Below, piece after piece: positions 1 to 10,137 of a DNA stretch of 64,000 bases. The first letter of the stretch is position 1, and every line of letters starts with the position of its first letter. Under the pieces are notes generated by a model. That model did not search any database. It had not been told where the DNA came from and saw only the letters and a program-made list of their open reading frames with translations. The DNA comes from Acidobacteriota bacterium. Lineage in GTDB: Bacteria; Acidobacteriota; Terriglobia; Terriglobales; Acidobacteriaceae. A program made the translations under genes and the position numbers. The DNA lies in the NCBI GenBank assembly GCA_021778845.1, contig JAJYBU010000001.1:62001-126000 (forward strand). The letters run 5' to 3'.

Positions 1-65
1 TCCGTCGATGGCGCGGTCGTGGAGTGGGAGAGGCAACACGGATCCTTGTAAGGGTGCGGTGGTTT

Positions 66-1823
66 CTAGTAGACGTCACGGTGATAGCGGTTCTGTTCCT
101 GCAGTTCCTGCACAAACTCTTGAGCTGCTTCGGCATCTTTTTGACCATGCTCTTCGATGAGCCGATGGAGAGCTGCGTCGACATCCCGGGCCATGCGTGA
201 GGCGTCACCGCAGACGTAGACGGATGCTCCCTCGTTGAGCCATCTCCAGAACTCTGCTCCAAACTCGATCATGCGGTCCTGCACGTAAATCTTGTGCTCC
301 TGATCGCGGGAGAAGGCCGTGTCAAGGCGGGTGAGATGCCCATCATGGCGCATAGCATCGAGTTCGTCGCGATAGAGAAAGTCGGTGCGGGCGCTGCGCT
401 CGCCGAAGAAAAGCCAGTTGCGGCCGGTGGCGCCTAGCGCGCGGCGCTCATGCAGAAAGGAGCGGAAGGGAGCAATGCCGGTGCCGGGGCCGATCATAAT
501 AACCGGCGCGGTGGGATCAGCAGGGAGGCGGAATTTTCTGTTGGGTTGAATGTAGATGGGCACGCGAGTTCCAAGCGGCGTGCGGTCGCTGAGCATGGTG
601 GAGCAGACGCCGCCGCGGTCACGATTGTGCGAGCGGTAGCGCACAACGGCGATGGTGGTGTGGATCTCGCTGCGGTGAAATGAGGGGCTGGATGAGATGG
701 AGTAGAGGCGCGTGGACAGCTTGGGAAGAATATGGACAAGCTGCGCGGGCGACATGAGCAGGCCGGGGCACTCTTCGATGAGATCGATGAGGCCGCGGCC
801 ATAGATGTAGGCGTCAAGCTCTTTGTGTGCTTCGGCGGAGAGAAGATGCTCGAGCTTGCAGCAATCGCCGAGCGCGGCGTAGGCCTGTACGGTCTTGCGG
901 GTGAGGCGCGAGGGCTCGAGGTGATGCGTGAGGGCCTCGCGCAGCGTGGTTTCGCCGAGCCTGGGCAGCGTGACAATATCGTCGGGCGAGAAGTGCGTAC
1001 GCGTAAGAATTTCCTCGACGACAGCGGGATCGTTCTGCGCAATGATTCCGCACGCGTCGCCGGCTTCATAGTGCACCTCTGAGCCAGCCAGCGAGATGCC
1101 GACGTGCATGGTGAGCTTGCTGGAAACTTCATGCGTGAGCGGACGCTTGTCGATGACTTCAGCGAGATAGGGATTGTCGCGCGTGTGCGTGTGAGGTTTT
1201 GCTGGAGGCACTGCGGCAGACGCTGCGGGCGCGGATGAAGAGGCAACCGGCGTGGCGGAGAGGCTGGCGAACACGGAGTACTTCCATTGCTCAAACGGCT
1301 CATCTACATCGACGCCGGAGTCGACGCGATCGCAGAGGCGGGTGCCACCGAGTGCGTAAAAGCGGGCGTCGAGGTCTGCGCCGAACTTACAGAAATGCTC
1401 ATAGCTGGTGTCGCCGAGCGCGAAGACGGCGTAGCGCAGGTTGTCGAGGCGCGGAGCTGAGAGAAGGTGGAGGGACTCGGCGAAGGCTTGCGCGCCGTCG
1501 GGCGGATCGCCTTCGCCATACGTGCTGGCAAGCACTAGAGCGTGCGTCTGCTCGGCGAGAGACGCCGTGGTGTAGGTGTCGAGCGAAGCTAGTTCGGGCA
1601 CGTGTCCCTGCTGCTTCAGTTCCTTGACGAGCTTCTTTGCAAGACGCTCGCTGGTGCCGCTCTGCGTGGCGAAGAGCACGGCGATATTGAGGGATGGGGT
1701 TGTGGCCTTCGGCGTTGGCGCTTCAGCGGTTGAATAGATTCCGGCTAGAAAGCCGTTGAGCCAAGCGCGTTGCTCCGGCGTGAAGGGTGCGTTATCGGGG
1801 ATGAAGGGGATGGTAGTATTCAT
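66..1823 (-). CDS. CysJ-type diflavin reductase (sulfite/nitrite reductase flavoprotein subunit)
   Basis: A 585-residue cytoplasmic diflavin reductase that should carry electrons from NADPH through FAD and FMN to a sirohaem enzyme. A flavodoxin domain spans roughly residues 45-190 (FATQSGTSERLAKKL, then STYGEGDPPDGA). The FAD-binding part shows RLYSISSSPSFH and GGVCSTML, the NADP-binding part shows GPGTGIAPFRSFLHERR, and the C-terminus ends in an aromatic residue, as in the family. Its ATG overlaps the stop of the upstream reductase gene by 4 bp (ATGA), so the two are translationally coupled and probably form one enzyme. Family knowledge fits CysJ. Because the partner looks NirA-like, the acceptor may be nitrite rather than sulfite. 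Confidence 0.88.
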   Translation of the reverse strand: MNTTIPFIPDNAPFTPEQRAWLNGFLAGIYSTAEAPTPKATTPSLNIAVLFATQSGTSERLAKKLVKELKQQGHVPELASLDTYTTASLAEQTHALVLASTYGEGDPPDGAQAFAESLHLLSAPRLDNLRYAVFALGDTSYEHFCKFGADLDARFYALGGTRLCDRVDSGVDVDEPFEQWKYSVFASLSATPVASSSAPAASAAVPPAKPHTHTRDNPYLAEVIDKRPLTHEVSSKLTMHVGISLAGSEVHYEAGDACGIIAQNDPAVVEEILTRTHFSPDDIVTLPRLGETTLREALTHHLEPSRLTRKTVQAYAALGDCCKLEHLLSAEAHKELDAYIYGRGLIDLIEECPGLLMSPAQLVHILPKLSTRLYSISSSPSFHRSEIHTTIAVVRYRSHNRDRGGVCSTMLSDRTPLGTRVPIYIQPNRKFRLPADPTAPVIMIGPGTGIAPFRSFLHERRALGATGRNWLFFGERSARTDFLYRDELDAMRHDGHLTRLDTAFSRDQEHKIYVQDRMIEFGAEFWRWLNEGASVYVCGDASRMARDVDAALHRLIEEHGQKDAEAAQEFVQELQEQNRYHRDVY

Positions 1824-3598
1824 CGCGCGGACTCCGTGGCGCAGAGCGTGCGCAGTTGGCCGATGCTGCGGCGGCGGGTGAACTGAAGGAAGGATTCGTC
1901 ATCGGCGCGCTGGCTGACGTAGGCGTCGAAGAGGCGGTGGAGCACGGGCGTGAGTTCAGAGAATTTGATCGCCGGAATAAGCTCACGAGCGAGTCCCTGG
2001 TCTGCGTCGGCACCTCCGCCGAGCAGCACTTGATAGCCTTCTTCGCCTGCGACCTTGATGCCCATCAATCCAATGTCTCCGATGTAGTGTTGGGCGCAGG
2101 AGTGGTGGCAGCCGGTGACATGAAGGTTGATGGGCTGCATGATGTTGAAGTGCTTATCCAGTGAGTCTGCGAGCGCGACAGCGTGGGTCTTGGTGTCACT
2201 GGCGGCAAACCGGCAGCCCTGATTACCAGTGCATGCGACGGTGCCGCGGAGCACCGGACCAGCGGTGAAGTTGAGGCCCGCATCGTGAAGGGACTGCTGC
2301 ACAGCTTCGACCTTGTCGATGGGGACGTTGGGAACGATGATGTTCTGCCATACGGTGAGGCGCAGTTCACCGCTGCCAAGTTCCTCTGCGATGCGTGCGA
2401 GGGCGCGCATCTGCGCGGCAGGAAGGCGGCCAACGGGAACAACGACGCCGATCGAGACGAGTCCAGGCTGGGACTGCGGATGGACGCCGATGTGGCCGGC
2501 GCGGTCGATGGCGCGGCGGGGTTGGCATTGCTCGACCGAAAGATACATGAGAGGAAATGCGAGCAGCTTCTCTGTTTCTTCGAGAAACTTCGCGATGCCC
2601 CACTTGTCGATCAGGTATTTCAGACGTGCCTTCTTACGGTCGGTGCGGTCGCCATTGGCTGCGAAGACACGGATCATCGCAACGGCTACGGCTACGGTCT
2701 GGTCAAGGCGGAGGAGCAGGCCGCAGTCGGTGGCAAACTGGCGGTGGCCGGTGATGCCGCAGAGCAGCACGCGGAAGTATATGCCGGGCGGAACGTCCTT
2801 GCCCTCGCTTACCTCGACAGCGACGAAGCCGATATCGTTGGTGTCGGCGACTACGGAGATGGCGCCGCCGTTGTCGAAGGCTACATTGAACTTGCGGGGA
2901 AGGCCGAAGAGGTCGCGGCAGTTTGAGATGTAGTGCTGGAGGGCAGAGGCCAGCGGTTGGACATCGAGCAACTCCGTGGGGTCGAGACCGGAGAGTGGCG
3001 AGGCGGTGATGTTGCGGATGTTGTCTGCGCCAGAGCCGCGCGAGGTCATGGCAAGCGACTCGATTTTATTGAGCACCTGGATGATGTGGCGTGGCTGGAA
3101 TTCGCGGATTTGCAGGTTGGCGCGTGTGGTGAGATCGCAGCGGCCAGCGCCCCAGTCTTCGGCCATGTCGGCCAGGCCGCGCATCTGCGCAGACGTGAGG
3201 ACGCCTCCGGGTGCACGCAGACGCAGCATGAAGGAGTCCTGCGCAGGAGCTACATAGAAGAGACCATGGAACTTGAAGCGGAAGATGTCGGCGGGCTCAG
3301 GCGCGCGATCTTCGCTGGCATGGGCCAGTAGTTTGTCCCATATGTCGAGGCCATTCTGTTCGTATTTCCACATCTCTTCGCGGCAAAGTTCGCTGAGCGG
3401 CGTGCCGAAGTAGAGCGGTTCTGGCTGCTCAGTTGCGAGGTTGGTTGCGCTGGTGGAGGGATCATTCGTGATGCGGCCGTCAGTGAGATGGCCTGCGAAC
3501 GGGACGAGGCTGCGCTGCTGTAGGCCCGCAAAGAAGCCTTGCAAGTACTGCTGCTGCGTTGCGGTGAACGCCGAGTTGTCGATGAAGACGGTGGACAT
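1820..3598 (-). CDS. NirA-type nitrite/sulfite reductase haemoprotein
   Basis: A 592-residue sirohaem and [4Fe-4S] reductase catalysing six-electron reduction of nitrite or sulfite. Two ferredoxin-like half-domains and two 4Fe-4S/sirohaem domains can be followed. The cluster cysteines are visible as CTGNQGC (C-x5-C) and CHHSC (C-x3-C) in the last third. The wording around the first pair (ACTGNQGCRFA) is closer to assimilatory nitrite reductases than to CysI, which usually has a proline-rich version; this is a judgement from memory of the families. It is the first gene of a two-gene operon with the diflavin reductase. The ATG at 3598 has a GGAG about 12 nt upstream. The upstream region carries inverted repeats and no other gene. 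Confidence 0.85.
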   Translation of the reverse strand: MSTVFIDNSAFTATQQQYLQGFFAGLQQRSLVPFAGHLTDGRITNDPSTSATNLATEQPEPLYFGTPLSELCREEMWKYEQNGLDIWDKLLAHASEDRAPEPADIFRFKFHGLFYVAPAQDSFMLRLRAPGGVLTSAQMRGLADMAEDWGAGRCDLTTRANLQIREFQPRHIIQVLNKIESLAMTSRGSGADNIRNITASPLSGLDPTELLDVQPLASALQHYISNCRDLFGLPRKFNVAFDNGGAISVVADTNDIGFVAVEVSEGKDVPPGIYFRVLLCGITGHRQFATDCGLLLRLDQTVAVAVAMIRVFAANGDRTDRKKARLKYLIDKWGIAKFLEETEKLLAFPLMYLSVEQCQPRRAIDRAGHIGVHPQSQPGLVSIGVVVPVGRLPAAQMRALARIAEELGSGELRLTVWQNIIVPNVPIDKVEAVQQSLHDAGLNFTAGPVLRGTVACTGNQGCRFAASDTKTHAVALADSLDKHFNIMQPINLHVTGCHHSCAQHYIGDIGLMGIKVAGEEGYQVLLGGGADADQGLARELIPAIKFSELTPVLHRLFDAYVSQRADDESFLQFTRRRSIGQLRTLCATESAR

Positions 3599-3843
3599 AC
3601 GTCAGAACTCCGGCAAAGCTGGGTCGAGAGAGAGGACGGCTGAGCCGTGCGGAGTTTCAGGAGACTCAATTCAAGAATGAAAGGATCTTCAGGCAAGGAG
3701 AATCTGGACTCGAACGGCACAGAGTGCGGTGAATGCACAGCTCATCACGGAGACTGAAGTTGTAAGGGATTCGATCTTAGGGGACAGGCGCGACAGGGGG
3801 CTCGTCCGGCTACCGACGGCACTTCTGCGAACGAAGCAGGCCA

Positions 3844-3882: not shown

Positions 3883-4078
3883 AAGAAGAGTTTTCCTTCC
3901 CCATCCGGCAGCGCAAAATATCTTCGCGCAATGACGTGAAATTTGCACTGCGTTGAAGGCCATGCTATATCTCACTTAATCCTCTGCTGCGCCGCGCGAC
4001 ACCCCGACGTGACTCGCGCGCATGATGGAATCTTTCGACTGGTCCTCTCCCAGGAGCCACGTAAACCAGGCGATTCCA

Positions 4079-4127
4079 GCAAGCCAATAGCTTGCGCGTT
4101 GAGCAGAACGGCTGCCCTGAAGCAGTC
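4079..4127 (+). promoter_or_regulatory. Two tandem stem-loops in the porin leader
   Basis: Hairpin 1 is GCAAGC-CAATA-GCTTGC (4079-4095). Hairpin 2 is GGCTGC-CCTGAA-GCAGTC (4110-4127, one G-U pair) with a six-base loop. ANTAR proteins bind paired stem-loops with six-base loops having A at position 1 and G at position 4. Hairpin 2 has G at 4 but C at 1, and hairpin 1 has a five-base loop, so the match is incomplete. They are noted because an ANTAR protein is encoded two genes away. Confidence 0.3.
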
Positions 4128-4252: not shown

Positions 4253-5725
4253 TTGAACCGATTCGCAGTGCTCTGCGTTACTACTCTCATATGCTTGTCC
4301 AGCGCGGCTCAAACGCCCGCGCAGCACTCGACATCGCCTGTAAGCATCACCGTGTACGACCGCACGCGACTGAATGTATTTCAGTGGTTCACCGCAACGC
4401 CCGACGCAGCGACCTATGCGTATCTCGAATCGTTGTTGAGAGCCGGCATCGCGCAGAAGCGGAAGTCCTACGACTGGGAGCTTGAGCTTACGCAACCATC
4501 GGAGTTGTTTCTTCCGAGCGACGCTGTCTCGCCGGTTGCGGCGCAAGGTCAACTGGGACTGGGCGGAACATATTACGCTTCAAACAACAACCAGACCGAA
4601 GCTGCGGCGGCTGGGTTCAAACAGGGTTTCATTCGTTTTCACGGGAGCACTCCGGACTGGGCCCTGCGCGTCGGGCGTTTTGAATTTTTCGAGGGCCAGG
4701 AGACAACGCCCAAAAATCCTGACCTGCAATTTCTACAGGCAAACCGCATGGCACAGCGGCTTGTCGGAAACTTTGGCTTCTCCAATGCCCAGCGGAGTTT
4801 TGACGGCGTGGATGGTCACTATGACGGCAAGACATGGAACCTGACGGCGATGGCCGCGCGTGCAGACCAGGGCGTCTTCAACATGAATACGAACCCGGAA
4901 CTGAACGTCGATATGCAGTATCTTGCGTATAGCAAATATGACTTCAGCAACCACTTTCTGTGGCGCGTATTCGCGATGGGCTATCACGATGGACGCACCG
5001 GGCTTACGAAGACGGACAACCGAGCGCTCGCCGTGCGTGCCGCGGACCATAAGAATATCCGGCTGGGCAGCTATGGTGCAGACTTCCTGACATCAATTCC
5101 GGCAGGAGCAGGCAAGTTCGATCTGCTGGGCTGGGGCGTGCTGCAAAACGGCAATTGGGGCTTGCTCAATCATCGTGCGGGAGCAATCGCCGTGGAAGGG
5201 GGCTACCATGCGACCCAGCTTCGCACCGCGCCGTGGCTGCGGGCAGGGTTCCTCCGCAGCACGGGCGATAACAATCCCACGGACAATCAGCACACAACGT
5301 TCTTCCAGGTGTTGCCGACGCCGCGCATCTATGCGCGCTTTCCGTTCTATAACATGATGAACAGCAAGGACCAGTTTGTGCAGTTGATGGACATGCCAAC
5401 GAAGCATCTGGCGATGCGGTCGGACATGCATTTTCTGCAACTGACGTCGAACCAGGATTTTTGGTATCAGGGCGGCGGCGCATACGACAACAAGGTCTTC
5501 GGCTTCGTCGGGCGGCCCGCCAATCTGCACGCCAGCTTCTCTTCGGTGTTTGATTTGTCGGCGGACTACGAGGTGTCGAAGAGAATATCCCTGACGGCAT
5601 ATTACGCGCACGCATGGGGCAAGAGCGTCATCGCAGCCATCTATCCGGTTGGGCGATCGTCACAGTATGGCTATCTCGAGATGACATACAAATGGGGCCG
5701 CCCGCAGCGTCCAATGAAGGAGTAA
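4253..5725 (+). CDS. Alginate-export-like outer membrane porin
   Basis: A 490-residue secreted protein with a short signal peptide (MNRFAVLCVTTLICLSSAAQ) followed by alternating-residue strands typical of an outer membrane beta-barrel, for example WALRVGRFEFFEGQ and SLTAYYAHAWGK. The overall pattern resembles the alginate-export/AlgE-like porin family, but the substrate cannot be read from it. The start is TTG with AGGTG about 8 nt upstream. It is divergent from the NirA-type operon and followed by the HemD-GAF-ANTAR gene, so it may import an anion such as nitrate or nitrite; that role is inference from position only. Confidence 0.6.
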   Translation: MNRFAVLCVTTLICLSSAAQTPAQHSTSPVSITVYDRTRLNVFQWFTATPDAATYAYLESLLRAGIAQKRKSYDWELELTQPSELFLPSDAVSPVAAQGQLGLGGTYYASNNNQTEAAAAGFKQGFIRFHGSTPDWALRVGRFEFFEGQETTPKNPDLQFLQANRMAQRLVGNFGFSNAQRSFDGVDGHYDGKTWNLTAMAARADQGVFNMNTNPELNVDMQYLAYSKYDFSNHFLWRVFAMGYHDGRTGLTKTDNRALAVRAADHKNIRLGSYGADFLTSIPAGAGKFDLLGWGVLQNGNWGLLNHRAGAIAVEGGYHATQLRTAPWLRAGFLRSTGDNNPTDNQHTTFFQVLPTPRIYARFPFYNMMNSKDQFVQLMDMPTKHLAMRSDMHFLQLTSNQDFWYQGGGAYDNKVFGFVGRPANLHASFSSVFDLSADYEVSKRISLTAYYAHAWGKSVIAAIYPVGRSSQYGYLEMTYKWGRPQRPMKE

Positions 5726-5923: not shown

Positions 5924-7570
5924 ATGGCACATGCCAGCTTTGACGGTCTCAGGGTGCTCGCTCTTGAGAGCCGTCGTGCAAAGGAAGTTGAGAAGCTGAT
6001 CCGCACCTACCGGGGCGAGCCCTTCGTCGTGCCTTCGATGCGCGAGGTTGCGCTCGAGACGCAGACGGCCGCGCTCGACTTTGTCCATGACCTGCTCGAA
6101 GACAAGTTCGATCTTGTGATCTTCATGACCGGCGTGGGTGTGCGGGCGTTGATGGACATTGCCGCGACGAAATACGATCCTGCCATCGTGATCGATGCGC
6201 TGTGCAAGGTTCGCATTGTGGCACGCGGCCCCAAGCCTGAACAGGTGCTGCGCGATTTGAAGATTCCGGTGCTGGCGACCAGCAACGATCCCAATACGTG
6301 GCGCGAGGTGCTGGGGCTTCTGAAGGATGTCTTCGGGCCGTCGATTGCAACGATGCGCGTCGCACTGCAGGAGTACGGCGCCTCCAACCCGGAGCTCATC
6401 TCGGCGCTAAGCGAAGAGTGTCTTTCGGTGACCAAAGTGCCGGTGTATCAGTGGGCGCTCCCGGAGGACCTGCAGCCGTTGCGCGAGTGCGTGTTGGGCA
6501 TTACGACAGGCTTTGTAGACGTCGTGCTCTTCATGACAGCGGTACAGGTCATCCACCTCTTTCAGGTGGCCGAGCAGATTGGCATGGTCGAACAGTTGCG
6601 AGCCGGCCTGGCCTCCATGGTCGTTCTCTCGATCGGCCCCAACACGACCGAGGAACTCACTCACTACGGCGTCATTCCAGACTTCGAGCCATCGCGGCCG
6701 AAGATGGGCTTCCTCGTGAACGAAGCAGCGCAGTACGCAGGCAAGCTCCTCAAGACCAAACGAGACCATGCCGTAGCAGGCCTCGTTCCCGCGCAGGCAT
6801 CCGCTGCACCAGAGGGCTCCGTGCCAAAGCCAGGCGTGCGTCGCATCGCGGAATCAACCTCGACGATGGCCGGGTTCCGCGACGGCCTGCTGCCCATGGA
6901 ATTTCTTCACGAGCTGAGCAGCCGCATCGCCAAAGCCGACCCCTTCCATGAAGTACTCAAACGCGTGCTGGACTTTGTCACGATGATGATTCCCTGTGAC
7001 TCATGTTTTGTGTACGTACTGCAGGACGAGAAGCTGGTCTTGCGTGCCTCGAAGAATCCGCATGCAGATCTCGTAGACCATCTTGGGCTGAAGCTCGGCC
7101 AGGGCATCACGGGATGGGTAGCGCAACATCGCGAGCCAGTCGCGATTGACTCCAGGGCCTCGGATGATCCGCGTTTCAGCGCCTTCATCAGCCTTCCTGA
7201 GGATCGCTTCGAAGCGATTCTGTGCACGCCTGTACTGTGCGCTGGACATGTCGTTGGCGTCATCACGATGCAGCACCGCCTGCCTTATCAGCACACCGCG
7301 GTCGAAGTGCGATTGCTCTCAACCATCGGCTTTCTGGTTGGCGCAGAACTCGAGCGTGCGCGTCTCGAAACCGAGAACCTGCAACTCTCTGACCGGCTCG
7401 AGACACGCAAACTTCTTGACCGCGCCAAGAGCGTTCTGCAACGCGATTTCCAGTTGACAGAAGAAGAGGCGTATCGCCGCATGCAGCGCGAAAGCCGGCA
7501 ACGCCGCAAGGCTATGCGCGAGGTAGCGGAGGCCATTCTCTTAACCGACGACATGCGCCGCAGTCAGTGA
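5924..7570 (+). CDS. Uroporphyrinogen-III synthase-GAF-ANTAR fusion protein
   Basis: A 548-residue three-domain protein. Residues about 8-275 match uroporphyrinogen-III synthase (HemD fold; FDLVIFMTGVGVRAL, LSIGPNTTEELTHYG). Residues about 340-485 form a GAF sensor (LGQGITGWVAQHREPVAIDS, then ILCTPVLCAGHVVGVITMQ). Residues about 490-540 form an ANTAR RNA-binding coiled coil (LLDRAKSVLQRDFQLTEEEA, then MREVAEAILL). ANTAR proteins act as antiterminators, for example NasR and NasT for nitrate or nitrite genes. A HemD domain fused to such a module suggests a regulator that senses a tetrapyrrole or gates sirohaem supply, rather than a plain biosynthetic enzyme. The neighbouring sirohaem-dependent reductase supports this. 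Whether the HemD part keeps catalysis is unknown. Start: ATG with GAGGA 6 nt upstream. Confidence 0.85.
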   Translation: MAHASFDGLRVLALESRRAKEVEKLIRTYRGEPFVVPSMREVALETQTAALDFVHDLLEDKFDLVIFMTGVGVRALMDIAATKYDPAIVIDALCKVRIVARGPKPEQVLRDLKIPVLATSNDPNTWREVLGLLKDVFGPSIATMRVALQEYGASNPELISALSEECLSVTKVPVYQWALPEDLQPLRECVLGITTGFVDVVLFMTAVQVIHLFQVAEQIGMVEQLRAGLASMVVLSIGPNTTEELTHYGVIPDFEPSRPKMGFLVNEAAQYAGKLLKTKRDHAVAGLVPAQASAAPEGSVPKPGVRRIAESTSTMAGFRDGLLPMEFLHELSSRIAKADPFHEVLKRVLDFVTMMIPCDSCFVYVLQDEKLVLRASKNPHADLVDHLGLKLGQGITGWVAQHREPVAIDSRASDDPRFSAFISLPEDRFEAILCTPVLCAGHVVGVITMQHRLPYQHTAVEVRLLSTIGFLVGAELERARLETENLQLSDRLETRKLLDRAKSVLQRDFQLTEEEAYRRMQRESRQRRKAMREVAEAILLTDDMRRSQ

Positions 7571-7620: not shown

Positions 7621-8883
7621 CTAAGTTGAATGAAGTTTCAGCGCCTGTTCGATGAGCTCTGCACCACGTCCTGGCCCGTCCAACTGCTGGATCGCTCGCT
7701 GCAACCTCTGAGCCGCTTCACGGTATGTAGCATCTTCAAGCACGAGGGTGACTGCCTTGCGCAGCCGCGCCGCGTTTAGCCAGTGTGGGGAGACCACCAC
7801 ACAGGCTCCGCGTGCCTTGAGCCTCGCCGCCACGCCGGGCTGGTCGTTGGCGAGAGGCACGACCACCATCGGCACGCCCTCGGACAGCGACTCGAGGACC
7901 GTGTTCAGGCCGCCATGCGTGATGACCAGCGCGGCCCGCTTCAGCAGGTCAAGCTGGGGAGCAAAGCGCACCACCAGCGGATCGCCGGCCAGCGTTCCCA
8001 GCCTTGCCGGATCTAGTCCGCCACCCATCGAGAGGACGAGTTGTGCGTCGAGTCCGGCACACGCCTCCGCAATCGTTTTGAAGATGGCCTCCGAGCCATT
8101 CTGAAGCGTGCCCAGCGATGCATAAATGAGCCGGCGTTCGTCGAGCCGGTCCCACGGAAAGTCGACAGCAGGACGATGTTCAGCTCGTAAGAATGGCCCG
8201 GTGTAGTGCAGCCCGGCTGGCCTCTCGCCGCGAATGTCGAACTCCAGTGCTTCCGGCAACTGAGCAATCTGCACCAGGGGCGATAGCTGGTCCTCGGGAC
8301 GCTTGAAGGGCTTCAATCCCCACGCGCTGCGCTGCTGGTTCACTACGCTGAAGATCGGGGTTGCGATCCACAACAGCACCTGCATCGCAATGCGGTTTCG
8401 CAAACGGCTCAGCCAATCCTGTCCCGCCGCCCAGCCCAGCCAGAACGGCGGAAACCGGTCGTCGGGGAGCAGCGGAGGAAACAAGGCGATCGAGATCCAG
8501 GGCAGGCCCAAATGGTCTGCCACGTTTCCGGCAAACTCCGCCTCGTCGACCAGCAGCGCGCCAACGTTGGCTGCTCGCACCGCCTCGGGCCCATCGCGCA
8601 GGATCATGCTCGTCGAATGCCTCACCCGCTCCAACGTGAATCGAAGGGCCGCGATCCCCTTCAACCGCGCCAGTTGCTCATCCAGCTTCTTGAGTGTGCC
8701 GGGCGGATAGTCTTCCGCGCCAATCCGATGAAACTCGATACCCGCGGCACGCACGCCTGCCTCGGTATCCGCGATCCCGAAGATCACCACCTCGTGGCCT
8801 CTCCGTTGCAAGCAATGAGCCAGCGCGACCATCGGATTGAGATGACCGCTTCCCGGAAAACAAAATACCCCGAACTTTGCCAT
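7621..8883 (-). CDS. GT1-family glycosyltransferase (zeaxanthin glucosyltransferase/MGT-like)
   Basis: A 420-residue GT-B fold enzyme that should transfer a sugar from an NDP-sugar to a small lipophilic acceptor. The N-terminus has the family pattern GVFCFPGSGHLNPMVALA. The C-terminal donor-binding half has VRFAPQLDLLKRAALVITHGG followed by LNTVLESLSEGVPMVVVPL, where the HGG and the E-G-x-P elements belong to the UGT/MGT signature. Closest family impression is CrtX (carotenoid glucosylation) or macrolide-type transferases. No carotenoid genes lie nearby, so the acceptor is open. The ATG is preceded by GAGAGGG. It stands alone between the HemD fusion (convergent) and a permease gene. Confidence 0.8.
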   Translation of the reverse strand: MAKFGVFCFPGSGHLNPMVALAHCLQRRGHEVVIFGIADTEAGVRAAGIEFHRIGAEDYPPGTLKKLDEQLARLKGIAALRFTLERVRHSTSMILRDGPEAVRAANVGALLVDEAEFAGNVADHLGLPWISIALFPPLLPDDRFPPFWLGWAAGQDWLSRLRNRIAMQVLLWIATPIFSVVNQQRSAWGLKPFKRPEDQLSPLVQIAQLPEALEFDIRGERPAGLHYTGPFLRAEHRPAVDFPWDRLDERRLIYASLGTLQNGSEAIFKTIAEACAGLDAQLVLSMGGGLDPARLGTLAGDPLVVRFAPQLDLLKRAALVITHGGLNTVLESLSEGVPMVVVPLANDQPGVAARLKARGACVVVSPHWLNAARLRKAVTLVLEDATYREAAQRLQRAIQQLDGPGRGAELIEQALKLHST

Positions 8884-8988: not shown

Positions 8989-10137
8989 CTAATCGTGCCT
9001 CAGCGCATCCACCGGCGAGAGTTGGCCTGCGCGCCACGCCGGAAGCGCACCGGCGATCAGCCCGGCAACCACCGCGATTCCGAGCGCCTCGGCAAGAATT
9101 TGCCAGTGCAGTGACCCCGAAACGAAACTAGCGGTTTGTGGCAAAGATGCCAGCACCTGCAACGCACACCATCCCAAAGCGATACCGAACAATCCCCCGC
9201 CCAGGCCCAGGATGACGGCTTCAATCTCAATATGTGCTAGCACCAGCCAGCGGTTCCAGCCAATGGCGCGCAGGATGCCGATCTCCCGCGTGCGCTCGAA
9301 GACCGACATGGCCATGGTGTTCGCAATTCCCAGTATCCCGATCAGGATGGCGAGCGACGAGGTACCCCAGGCCGAAGCGTGGGCCAGCTTCACAAACTGA
9401 TTGTCGCTCGCGCGTTCCGCCGCCGGCACAGCGCGCAGTCCCGGCAGAGCCGATTCAATCTCAGCCTGCGCGTGCCTCATGTATTGCTCCGGCGTCTCTC
9501 CGCGAGGCGCTGGTCGCAGCCGGACATCAATCGTCGAAACTTTGCCCTGCAAGCTGCTCAAATTTTGCAACTGATCCAGCGGCATGATCACCGCAGCCGC
9601 CTCCAGCGTTGAAGCACCGTGATAGATGGCCGTAACCGTGAATGGCTTGCCCTGAATTTCAAGCATGTCGCCGGGTGCTTTCTTCAGATCCTGCGCGAGC
9701 AGATCGCCGAGCATGACTTCAGCGTGCCCGTCGCGAAATCTCTGCCCATTAAGAATCTGCAGCGAACGAAACTGAAATGCATCGGCCTTCCATCCATAGA
9801 CCAGCGCATTCACGTCCGGAGTCAGGTCCATCAGATTAAAAATCGTCGGCGAAGCCTGCGCCACATCGGGTAACGCCTTGAGCTTTACCGTCGTCGATTC
9901 GTCCAGCGACGTATTCAGGAACGTCCCACGAATCACGGCAATGTCCGTGCCGCTGCTGGAGTAAATACGCAACCACTGCTGCTCGAACGCACTCGAAAAT
10001 CCGACCAGGCCCACAAACGCGCCCACCGCCGTTCCGATTCCGGCCAGCGTGAGCAGAGTCCTCAACCACCGACGCTTCAGATTCTTCAAAACAAATCCCG
10101 TGAACGACAATGTTTTCGCCATGAACTTGGAATACAT
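8989..10137 (-). CDS. MacB/FtsX-type ABC transporter permease
   Basis: A 382-residue inner membrane protein with the MacB-like layout: one N-terminal membrane helix (about residues 25-50, LLTLAGIGTAVGAFVGLVGF), a periplasmic domain of about 200 residues, then three helices in the FtsX domain (SLAILIGILGIANTMAMSVF, then the REIGILRAIGW loop, and two further helices). The family couples ATP hydrolysis to export or to pulling on lipoproteins or antibiotics. No ATPase or adaptor gene is adjacent, which is unusual for the family. Two starts are possible: ATG 10137 with AAAGG touching it, or ATG 10122 with AAAGGA about 11 nt upstream. Confidence 0.8.
   Translation of the reverse strand: MYSKFMAKTLSFTGFVLKNLKRRWLRTLLTLAGIGTAVGAFVGLVGFSSAFEQQWLRIYSSSGTDIAVIRGTFLNTSLDESTTVKLKALPDVAQASPTIFNLMDLTPDVNALVYGWKADAFQFRSLQILNGQRFRDGHAEVMLGDLLAQDLKKAPGDMLEIQGKPFTVTAIYHGASTLEAAAVIMPLDQLQNLSSLQGKVSTIDVRLRPAPRGETPEQYMRHAQAEIESALPGLRAVPAAERASDNQFVKLAHASAWGTSSLAILIGILGIANTMAMSVFERTREIGILRAIGWNRWLVLAHIEIEAVILGLGGGLFGIALGWCALQVLASLPQTASFVSGSLHWQILAEALGIAVVAGLIAGALPAWRAGQLSPVDALRHD

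Follow-up and report, generated by a model that had tools for sequence, protein, structure and literature searches.

What might be the task of a gene that joins a uroporphyrinogen-III synthase (HemD) domain, a GAF domain and an ANTAR domain in a single frame, and that lies near the gene of a nitrite reductase? The question was raised by a stretch of 64,000 nucleotides (nt) of contig JAJYBU010000001.1 from a member of the Acidobacteriaceae (order Terriglobales), hereafter the window, in which such a gene, called HGA here as a short name for the HemD-GAF-ANTAR architecture, shares a neighbourhood with nirA (Table 1). As a whole, the evidence is probably best explained if HGA serves the Acidobacteriaceae as a one-component regulator that binds RNA and controls nitrate assimilation. 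Four features are established by sequence, namely the domain order, the genetic linkage, an RNA element with conservation and covariation, and the retention of the residues that contact the fourth loop base (G4) in a known ANTAR complex; RNA binding, the ligand, and the sign and level of control are what we infer beyond them.

The first-pass annotation of this locus had read three domains in one frame, and the exact open reading frame bears this out, each domain scoring above its Pfam cut-off: HEM4 (HemD) with 104.8 bits (E 4.7e-30, cut-off 27.5), GAF with 51.4 bits (amino acids (aa) 341-476; GAF_2 51.2 bits, aa 340-474; both above the gathering score) and ANTAR (PF03861) with 57.8 bits (E 9.5e-16, cut-off 27.3), the last being the profile check which that annotation had proposed. 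The fusion is no artefact of assembly, since the whole frame is conserved, on reading of the match list, in 92 genomes of the order. The AlphaFold2 model, made with 12 sequences (mean predicted local distance difference test (pLDDT) 78.1, predicted template modelling score 0.44, pLDDT below 50 at aa 286-337), includes a long helix running from the GAF domain into the ANTAR helices which may be coiled-coil-like. Thermus HemD (1wd7) was the top solved match in Foldseek (E 1.3e-15), followed by GAF domains of the PtsP type, and in sequence comparison the C-terminal segment aligns with ANTAR domains from Rv1626, EutV, NasR and AmiR. The Pfam scan of HGA found no DNA-binding family. HGA is the sole ANTAR protein found in this genome (89% complete), with no second ANTAR match at E 1e-3.

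The neighbouring sirohaem reductase named in the same annotation is confirmed as NirA (Table 1), whose product is presumably sirohaem-dependent, and a survey of gene neighbourhoods tied the architecture to it. Across 397 genomes of the order, NirA scored above cut-off in 72, and HGA was counted in 97 (92 full-length and at least five truncated, taken from the match list down to about E 4e-84, which includes every full-length match and may miss some truncated ones). Both were present in 70 genomes, NirA only in two, HGA only in 27 and neither in 298 (Fisher p 1.5e-52, relatedness being ignored). On rechecking the two exceptions, one genome (G267) was seen to have HGA aa 444-548 at a contig edge beside nirA, which brings the count to 71 of 72; the other (G341) is 73% complete and has nirA at a contig end. 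Neither outcome that the first-pass annotation had named as refuting, a missing ANTAR match or homologues never near sirohaem or nitrogen genes, was thus observed. HGA protein matches at E 1e-30 were found in 180 of the 397 genomes, many of which instead have GAF-ANTAR proteins without HemD. In a phylum-wide sample of 396 genomes, all 22 matches at 1e-100 fell within the family of the window, and a Candidatus Acidiferrales contig (L009; 47% identity, with HEM4, GAF and ANTAR all above cut-off) has the architecture too.

In the stretches fetched, a nitrate-assimilation gene accompanies 67 of the 98 full-length HGA sequences; ten form a clade beside SPOR/Band_7 genes and 21 have neither neighbour, some of these lying on short contigs and one (L174, genome G326) having NirA nevertheless. 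Residue counts given below use the full-length sequences without L004-L007, L009 and L010, and the GAF-ANTAR sequences without L008, L010 and L212. The calling of open reading frames failed to recover HGA in L160 and L184 and the GAF-ANTAR protein in L215, L217 and L225-L227, leaving 98 HGA sequences and 14 of 19 GAF-ANTAR loci; nirA was not seen in the stretch at any of these 14. It also missed nirA in L115, L140, L168, L174 and L175, which are counted among the 38 HGA sequences called not nirA-linked (60 being called nirA-linked), while a genome-wide search places NirA beside HGA in their genomes (G008, G163, G044, G326 and G178). A confinement of HGA to nirA neighbourhoods was rejected, given the SPOR/Band_7 clade and the sequences without nitrate genes. 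That clade (L154, L157, L158, L161, L162, L169, L176, L177, L180 and L181) has no nirA in the stretch and several members have a GH63-like gene; an RNA target was not found for it, none of the ten loci having a match to the covariance model described below at E 1 or better. At one locus from the other family of the order (L307, genome G019), an HGA-type HemD stretch (4639-5451) and an HGA-like GAF stretch (9371-9832) lie separately on opposite strands, with a match to the same model between them (8336-8394), perhaps a split or pre-fusion form of HGA.

The nirA leaders of relatives contain two tandem hairpins (P1 and P2) with 6-nt loops, a closing C:G pair and G4, which is the design of an ANTAR target. 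When GCTC-N6-GAGC was sought without loop letters, 53 copies were found in 52 of 63 nirA leaders, and their loops have G4 in 53/53, C at position 1 (C1) in 52/53 and A5 in 44/53, positions 2, 3 and 6 being mixed. The window, L004 and L005/L113 fall outside this count, P2 there being CTC/GAG with a bulge (by eye); these arms are identical in the window, L004 and L005, and differences occur only at loop positions 2-3. P1 hairpins chosen on the stem only (at least five Watson-Crick pairs, 33-65 nt upstream) have G4 in 11/11, with C at position 1 in nine and T in two. Exceptions to the hexaloop, all by eye, are 7-nt loops in the leaders of a gene for a fused 4Fe-4S and DmsC-like protein (FeS/DmsC) and, in one clade, 8-nt P1 loops, seen in the nirA leaders of L134, L139, L141, L143, L145 and L146 (GCAC CTCCTGAT GTGC type). 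Canonical hexaloops with A1 and G4 (stems of at least 4 base pairs) were also scanned for in 64 nirA leaders, and no consistent element was found; the C1/G4 pattern emerged on side-by-side reading of the leaders. Rfam gave no match within the window.

A seed alignment was made of 30 of 35 segments (L005, L141, L146, L173 and L178 were omitted, P1 being doubtful or of a different form, and 12 more leaders with P2 had no P1 under the selection rule). Its paired cells amount to 88.7%, against 82.1% when shuffled, 20 cells are changed on both sides against 6.4, and the covariation score is reached in 0/500 shuffles, although relatedness of the sequences can inflate these figures. The number of pairs with two-sided change (four) was equalled in 62/500 shuffles, a slide of two columns scores 0.166 against 0.190, and every two-sided change falls in P1. 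It is improbable that the elements are DNA sites of a separate transcription factor, with HGA acting elsewhere. The TGACAC-N6-GTGTCA form of some leaders does resemble a dyad operator, and GCTC/GAGC, the arms of P2, make a perfect palindrome, but the central 6 nt lack symmetry and follow the orientation of nirA (G4 and C1 at the above counts in the sense direction), the P1 stems vary while pairing is maintained, and the closing C:G pair with G4 is the ANTAR signature (PMC7496416).

Covariance model R1, from whose seed the window was excluded, detects the nirA leader of the window (3807-3734; 26.9 bits, E 5.6e-6 in the window), which is also the top match in its own genome (E 3.3e-4, next 0.05); the porin-side hairpin (window positions 3993-4026) ranks third with E 0.067. 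Over the 397 genomes, R1 (E 1e-3, stricter filters) gave 52 matches in 50 genomes, 49 of which have HGA. In 46 of the 52, the R1 match stands in sense orientation 75-192 nt before the match to nirA; 17 of these 46 are in genomes outside the seed (including G037, which shares a segment with a seed row). The other six of the 52 are in G131, G136, G129, G290 and, twice, G019. An R1 search that covered the loci of the SPOR/Band_7 clade gave 88 matches, of which 72 were annotated and 50 of these stand before NirA. In 62 nirA-linked loci, a strict P2 string (GCTCC..GA.GAGC), chosen after the leaders had been read, has 59 copies where composition predicts 1.1; 44 of them stand before nirA, 11 before FeS/DmsC and four elsewhere. 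Nine copies, against an expectation of 0.6, occur in the 39 HGA loci where nirA was not called, and none in 19 loci with GAF-ANTAR proteins only (0.3 expected), where no R1 match falls below E 0.16.

How closely this pair resembles known ANTAR systems can be judged against published work. The targets of EutV, NasR and AmiR are dual hairpins with hexaloops bearing A1 and G4 (PMC3369931), and systematic evolution of ligands by exponential enrichment with NasR yields the closing C:G pair, A1 and G4 (PMC7496416). The sole base-specific contact described for the EutV-RNA structure is with G4, through Y164, E160, R142 and K149; A1 is uncontacted, and M172A abolishes binding (PMC8934654). HGA retains the residues for the G4 contact, R495, K502, E513 and Y517 being found in 60/60 nirA-linked sequences and Y517 in 37/38 of the others. 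E513 and Y517 align to E160 and Y164 of EutV, and R525 to M172 (ungapped alignment to 6wsh, whose chain index was inferred to run 2 above EutV numbering). This arginine takes the place of the methionine plug, a feature typical of ANTAR proteins without defining the family, in 98/98 HGA sequences and also in 14/14 proteins with GAF-ANTAR only, and thus is not specific to HGA. The HGA-linked RNA therefore matches the ANTAR class in architecture, closing pair and G4, with a consistent departure at position 1, and we hypothesise that R525 answers C1. Departures from A1 are already known, since among actinobacterial ANTAR targets A1 and G4 are conserved in more than 50% only (PMC8164766).

Similar hairpins were observed in other leaders of the same gene set. 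The two on the porin side of the window are 113 nt apart and both form in the minimum free energy (MFE) fold; compared with L113/L005 (one contig), differences occur only at loop positions 2, 3 and 6, the second hairpin there having an identical stem with the loop CTGGAT. Many porin leaders of relatives contain TGACAC[CTTGAT]GTGTCA, and some also GCTC[TACGCCT]GAGC (by eye). Where FeS/DmsC heads its own operon in relatives, its leader has hairpins of the GGCTC[CGCGAA]GAGCC type, with a GGC-loop-GCC hairpin of 7-nt loop about 40 nt upstream (by eye). A GAAC[CNNGAN]GTTC hairpin was noted near the called narK start in L147, L155, L163, L164, L165, L167, L168, L175 and L178, a possible additional HGA site.

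In the most likely mechanism, HGA dimers would attach to the paired hairpins of nitrate-assimilation transcripts while these are being made, and expression would rise. The ANTAR domain would recognise the tandem small hairpins (closing C:G, loop C1-N-N-G4) in the nirA-cysJ leader; the divergent porin transcript is probably a target too, as would be the leader of the FeS/DmsC-nasA operon in relatives where this is a separate unit. Binding would let the leader be read through or translated, and C1 together with arginine for the methionine plug would make up a variant form of the RNA code known for ANTAR proteins. Antitermination would be the mode with precedent, and the RNA-level antiterminator suggested in the first-pass annotation is sustained in part: the nirA leader contains an RNA element and the porin leader a more weakly supported one, while no convincing terminator follows P2 in the window. 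Of 47 leaders in relatives, 25 have a hairpin and a T-rich stretch after P2, a modest excess over mononucleotide shuffles (63/235, 27%). It is a credible possibility, though short of probable, that HGA acts on translation or mRNA stability and not on transcription termination. Translational control is made credible by the lack of an evident terminator in the window and the modest excess in relatives, and many actinobacterial ANTAR targets are described as having no predicted terminator or as overlapping the start region (PMC8164766); conversely, the elements of the nirA leaders stand 75-192 nt before the nirA match and not over the start, and the excess of T-rich hairpins, modest as it is, would favour termination.

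The signal is most likely perceived by the HemD module, which would sense a ligand of the sirohaem branch, either uroporphyrinogen III or a related tetrapyrrole. On comparison of the HemD residues, as had been proposed at the outset, T69, G70, R101, G102, K104, Y175, Q208, G238 and P239 were invariant in 60/60 nirA-linked sequences and T241 was present in 59/60; we take these to be pocket-type residues. The alternative that HGA is a bifunctional enzyme, in which an active uroporphyrinogen-III synthase supplies sirohaem for NirA and GAF-ANTAR has been added, gains from the retention of Y175, GPxT and similar residues and from the position of Thermus HemD, solved as a synthase, on the HGA side of the HemD tree. 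It nevertheless appears unlikely, for the genome has a separate stand-alone HemD with a higher score (181.5 against 106.7 bits), the HGA module falls far below the NCBIfam synthase cut-offs (123.9 against 233 for NF004584; 111 against 273 for NF005568), and the HemD domain of the actinobacterial regulator NnaR is reported to be without synthase activity (PMC6277429). NnaR is required for nitrate and nitrite use, and M. smegmatis has a second HemD besides it (PMC6277429). In a tree of 21 HemD domains, HGA, the NnaR-type mycobacterial protein L305 (HEM4 and Trans_reg_C; NF005568 535 bits against 273) and Thermus HemD share one side, and the HemC-linked, CobA-linked and own stand-alone HemD proteins form the other (100/100, long branches). 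A clade of HGA and NnaR HemD alone was not supported, Thermus HemD falling inside (approximately unbiased test p 0.12, long branches); the HGA and NnaR modules are 30% identical (E 2e-27).

The GAF domain would then be a second input to HGA. It contains a CDSC motif (C358 and C361) and H380 (window 6995-7063), perhaps a metal, Fe-S or redox site. That regulator and RNA target are as proposed while GAF perceives nitrate, nitrite or redox state, HemD being structural or serving dimerisation, is a credible possibility that falls short of probable. Nitrate-binding GAF receptors such as NreA exist, C358, C361 and H380 are present in 60/60 HGA sequences called nirA-linked, and the reported inactivity of NnaR HemD (PMC6277429) fits here as well. 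Set against this, the HemD residues taken as pocket-type are just as invariant, and the same cysteines and histidine occur equally in 14/14 GAF-ANTAR-only proteins that are not nirA-linked.

Several observations weigh against HGA being an RNA-binding regulator of nitrate assimilation. The methionine of the solved ANTAR proteins Rv1626, EutV, NasR and AmiR is absent from HGA, and loop A1 of the characterised pairs is replaced by C1. NirA does not reach its cut-off in 27 of the 97 HGA genomes, and the ten paralogues noted above adjoin unrelated genes. In the window, P1 is degenerate and pairs poorly, and no convincing terminator is evident. The nirA leader of the window is less stable when folded than most of its shuffles (z +1.41; 194/200 shuffles at least as stable) and its MFE fold lacks the two hairpins, a weakness that would be compatible with hairpins which a protein holds in place. 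Of the six folded stretches, three show both hairpins in the MFE (porin side of the window, L116 and L132), and the five other than the nirA leader likewise have no clear gain in stability over shuffles. Both the strict P2 string and R1 were derived from the leaders they count, unseeded ones excepted. Tetrapyrrole sensing by HemD, RNA binding by HGA and control of expression are predictions from sequence, and GAF could carry the signal.

Table 1. Features of the window around HGA, with positions counted from its first nucleotide.
Feature	Position	Strand	Details
FeS/DmsC-like protein gene (526 aa; 4Fe-4S and DmsC domains), start	1..39	-	continues outside window
CysJ-like flavoprotein gene	66..1823	-	4-nt overlap with nirA
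nirA, NirA-family nitrite reductase	1820..3598	-	NF007126 'NirA family protein', 807.6 bits, cut-off 523
Candidate dual-hexaloop RNA element, nirA leader	3734..3807	-	model R1, window outside seed
P2 loop CGTGAT	3749-3744	-	arms 3753-3750 and 3743-3740
P1 loop CCTGTC	3797-3792	-	stem degenerate
Candidate first hairpin, porin-side leader	3993..4019	+	CAC[CCCGAC]GTG at 4000-4011 with outer pairs; R1 18.8 bits, E 0.0011 in window
Candidate second hairpin, porin-side leader	4110..4127	+	GGCTGC[CCTGAA]GCAGTC
Alginate_exp-family outer-membrane protein (porin)	4253..5725	+	PF13372, 41.1 bits; divergent from nirA, upstream of HGA
HGA (HemD-GAF-ANTAR regulator, putative)	5924..7570	+	548 aa; exact open reading frame
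HemD (HEM4) domain of HGA	5984..6718	+	aa 21-265; Pfam and Foldseek
GAF domain of HGA	6941..7345	+	aa 340-474; Pfam and Foldseek
Long predicted helix, GAF into ANTAR helices	7298..7450	+	aa 459-509; AlphaFold2
ANTAR domain of HGA	7382..7540	+	aa 487-539; Pfam

Beyond the window, the nirA operon runs on through FeS/DmsC to a NasA-like molybdopterin oxidoreductase and a NarK-like transporter of the major facilitator superfamily (L213, G000:C61:47000-66900). The top NCBIfam model for the NasA-like protein is formate dehydrogenase alpha, followed by two NasA/NasC models, all below cut-off, and the transporter match is also below cut-off; from these matches and its neighbours, the oxidoreductase is putatively a nitrate reductase. 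The fused 4Fe-4S and DmsC-like membrane protein adjoining it (L213, 13460-15040) seems to be an unusual electron-transfer partner. In many relatives, porin-type genes of the Alginate_exp or another family lie close to HGA, and the position of the porin suggests that it may admit nitrate or nitrite.

Among the papers listed by literature searches that leave out most subscription papers, none was seen to describe a HemD-ANTAR fusion; family databases may list the architecture. To our knowledge, little gene regulation has been worked out in Acidobacteriota, and HGA with its leaders offers a candidate protein-RNA pair, testable, for a nitrogen pathway of this soil phylum. It also bears on the role that HemD domains play in regulators of nitrate use, NnaR among them. 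A natural variant in loop and protein could reveal how ANTAR specificity is set, and is informative because A1 is uncontacted in the solved EutV complex (PMC8934654). If the proposal is true, the output of the nirA nitrite reductase would be tuned to cofactor supply at the RNA level.

Among known systems, NasR and NasT share with HGA an ANTAR output and nitrate-assimilation targets, and NasR also the tandem hairpins, closing C:G pair, hexaloop and G4 (PMC7496416, PMC3369931). They differ in their input, since NasR senses with a NIT domain and NasT pairs with NasS, whereas HGA has HemD and GAF; on the HGA side the loop begins with C1 and not A1, the methionine plug is arginine and the window shows no clear terminator. 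EutV resembles HGA in E160/Y164, equivalent to E513/Y517, and in the long helix preceding ANTAR, but has a REC domain and phosphorylation, and its M172, R168 and R177 correspond to R525, Q521 and A530 in HGA (the last being Ser in 54/60). The GAF-ANTAR proteins of the same order are 54-65% identical to the GAF-ANTAR part of HGA in the rows read, and share R525 and the GAF cysteines in 14/14, but are without HemD and, at all 14 called loci, without nirA in the stretch.

On the sensory side, Thermus HemD (1wd7, 3d8n) has the same fold and many of the pocket-type residues, whereas the HemD of HGA is fused to regulatory domains and lies below the NCBIfam HemD cut-offs. NnaR of Streptomyces and mycobacteria is a nitrate/nitrite regulator with a HemD module in a genome with another HemD (PMC6277429), but the NnaR-type L305 ends in the DNA-binding Trans_reg_C where HGA ends in GAF-ANTAR. 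HGA would be similar to NnaR as regards the HemD module and the task, and similar to NasR as regards output. We tentatively suggest, as a possibility still short of a likely one, that the HemD sensor has been used twice for one task, with a DNA output in NnaR and an RNA output in HGA, that HGA reads a changed C1-N-N-G4/Arg code in several nitrate transcripts, and that a precursor of sirohaem gates NirA expression through its RNA.

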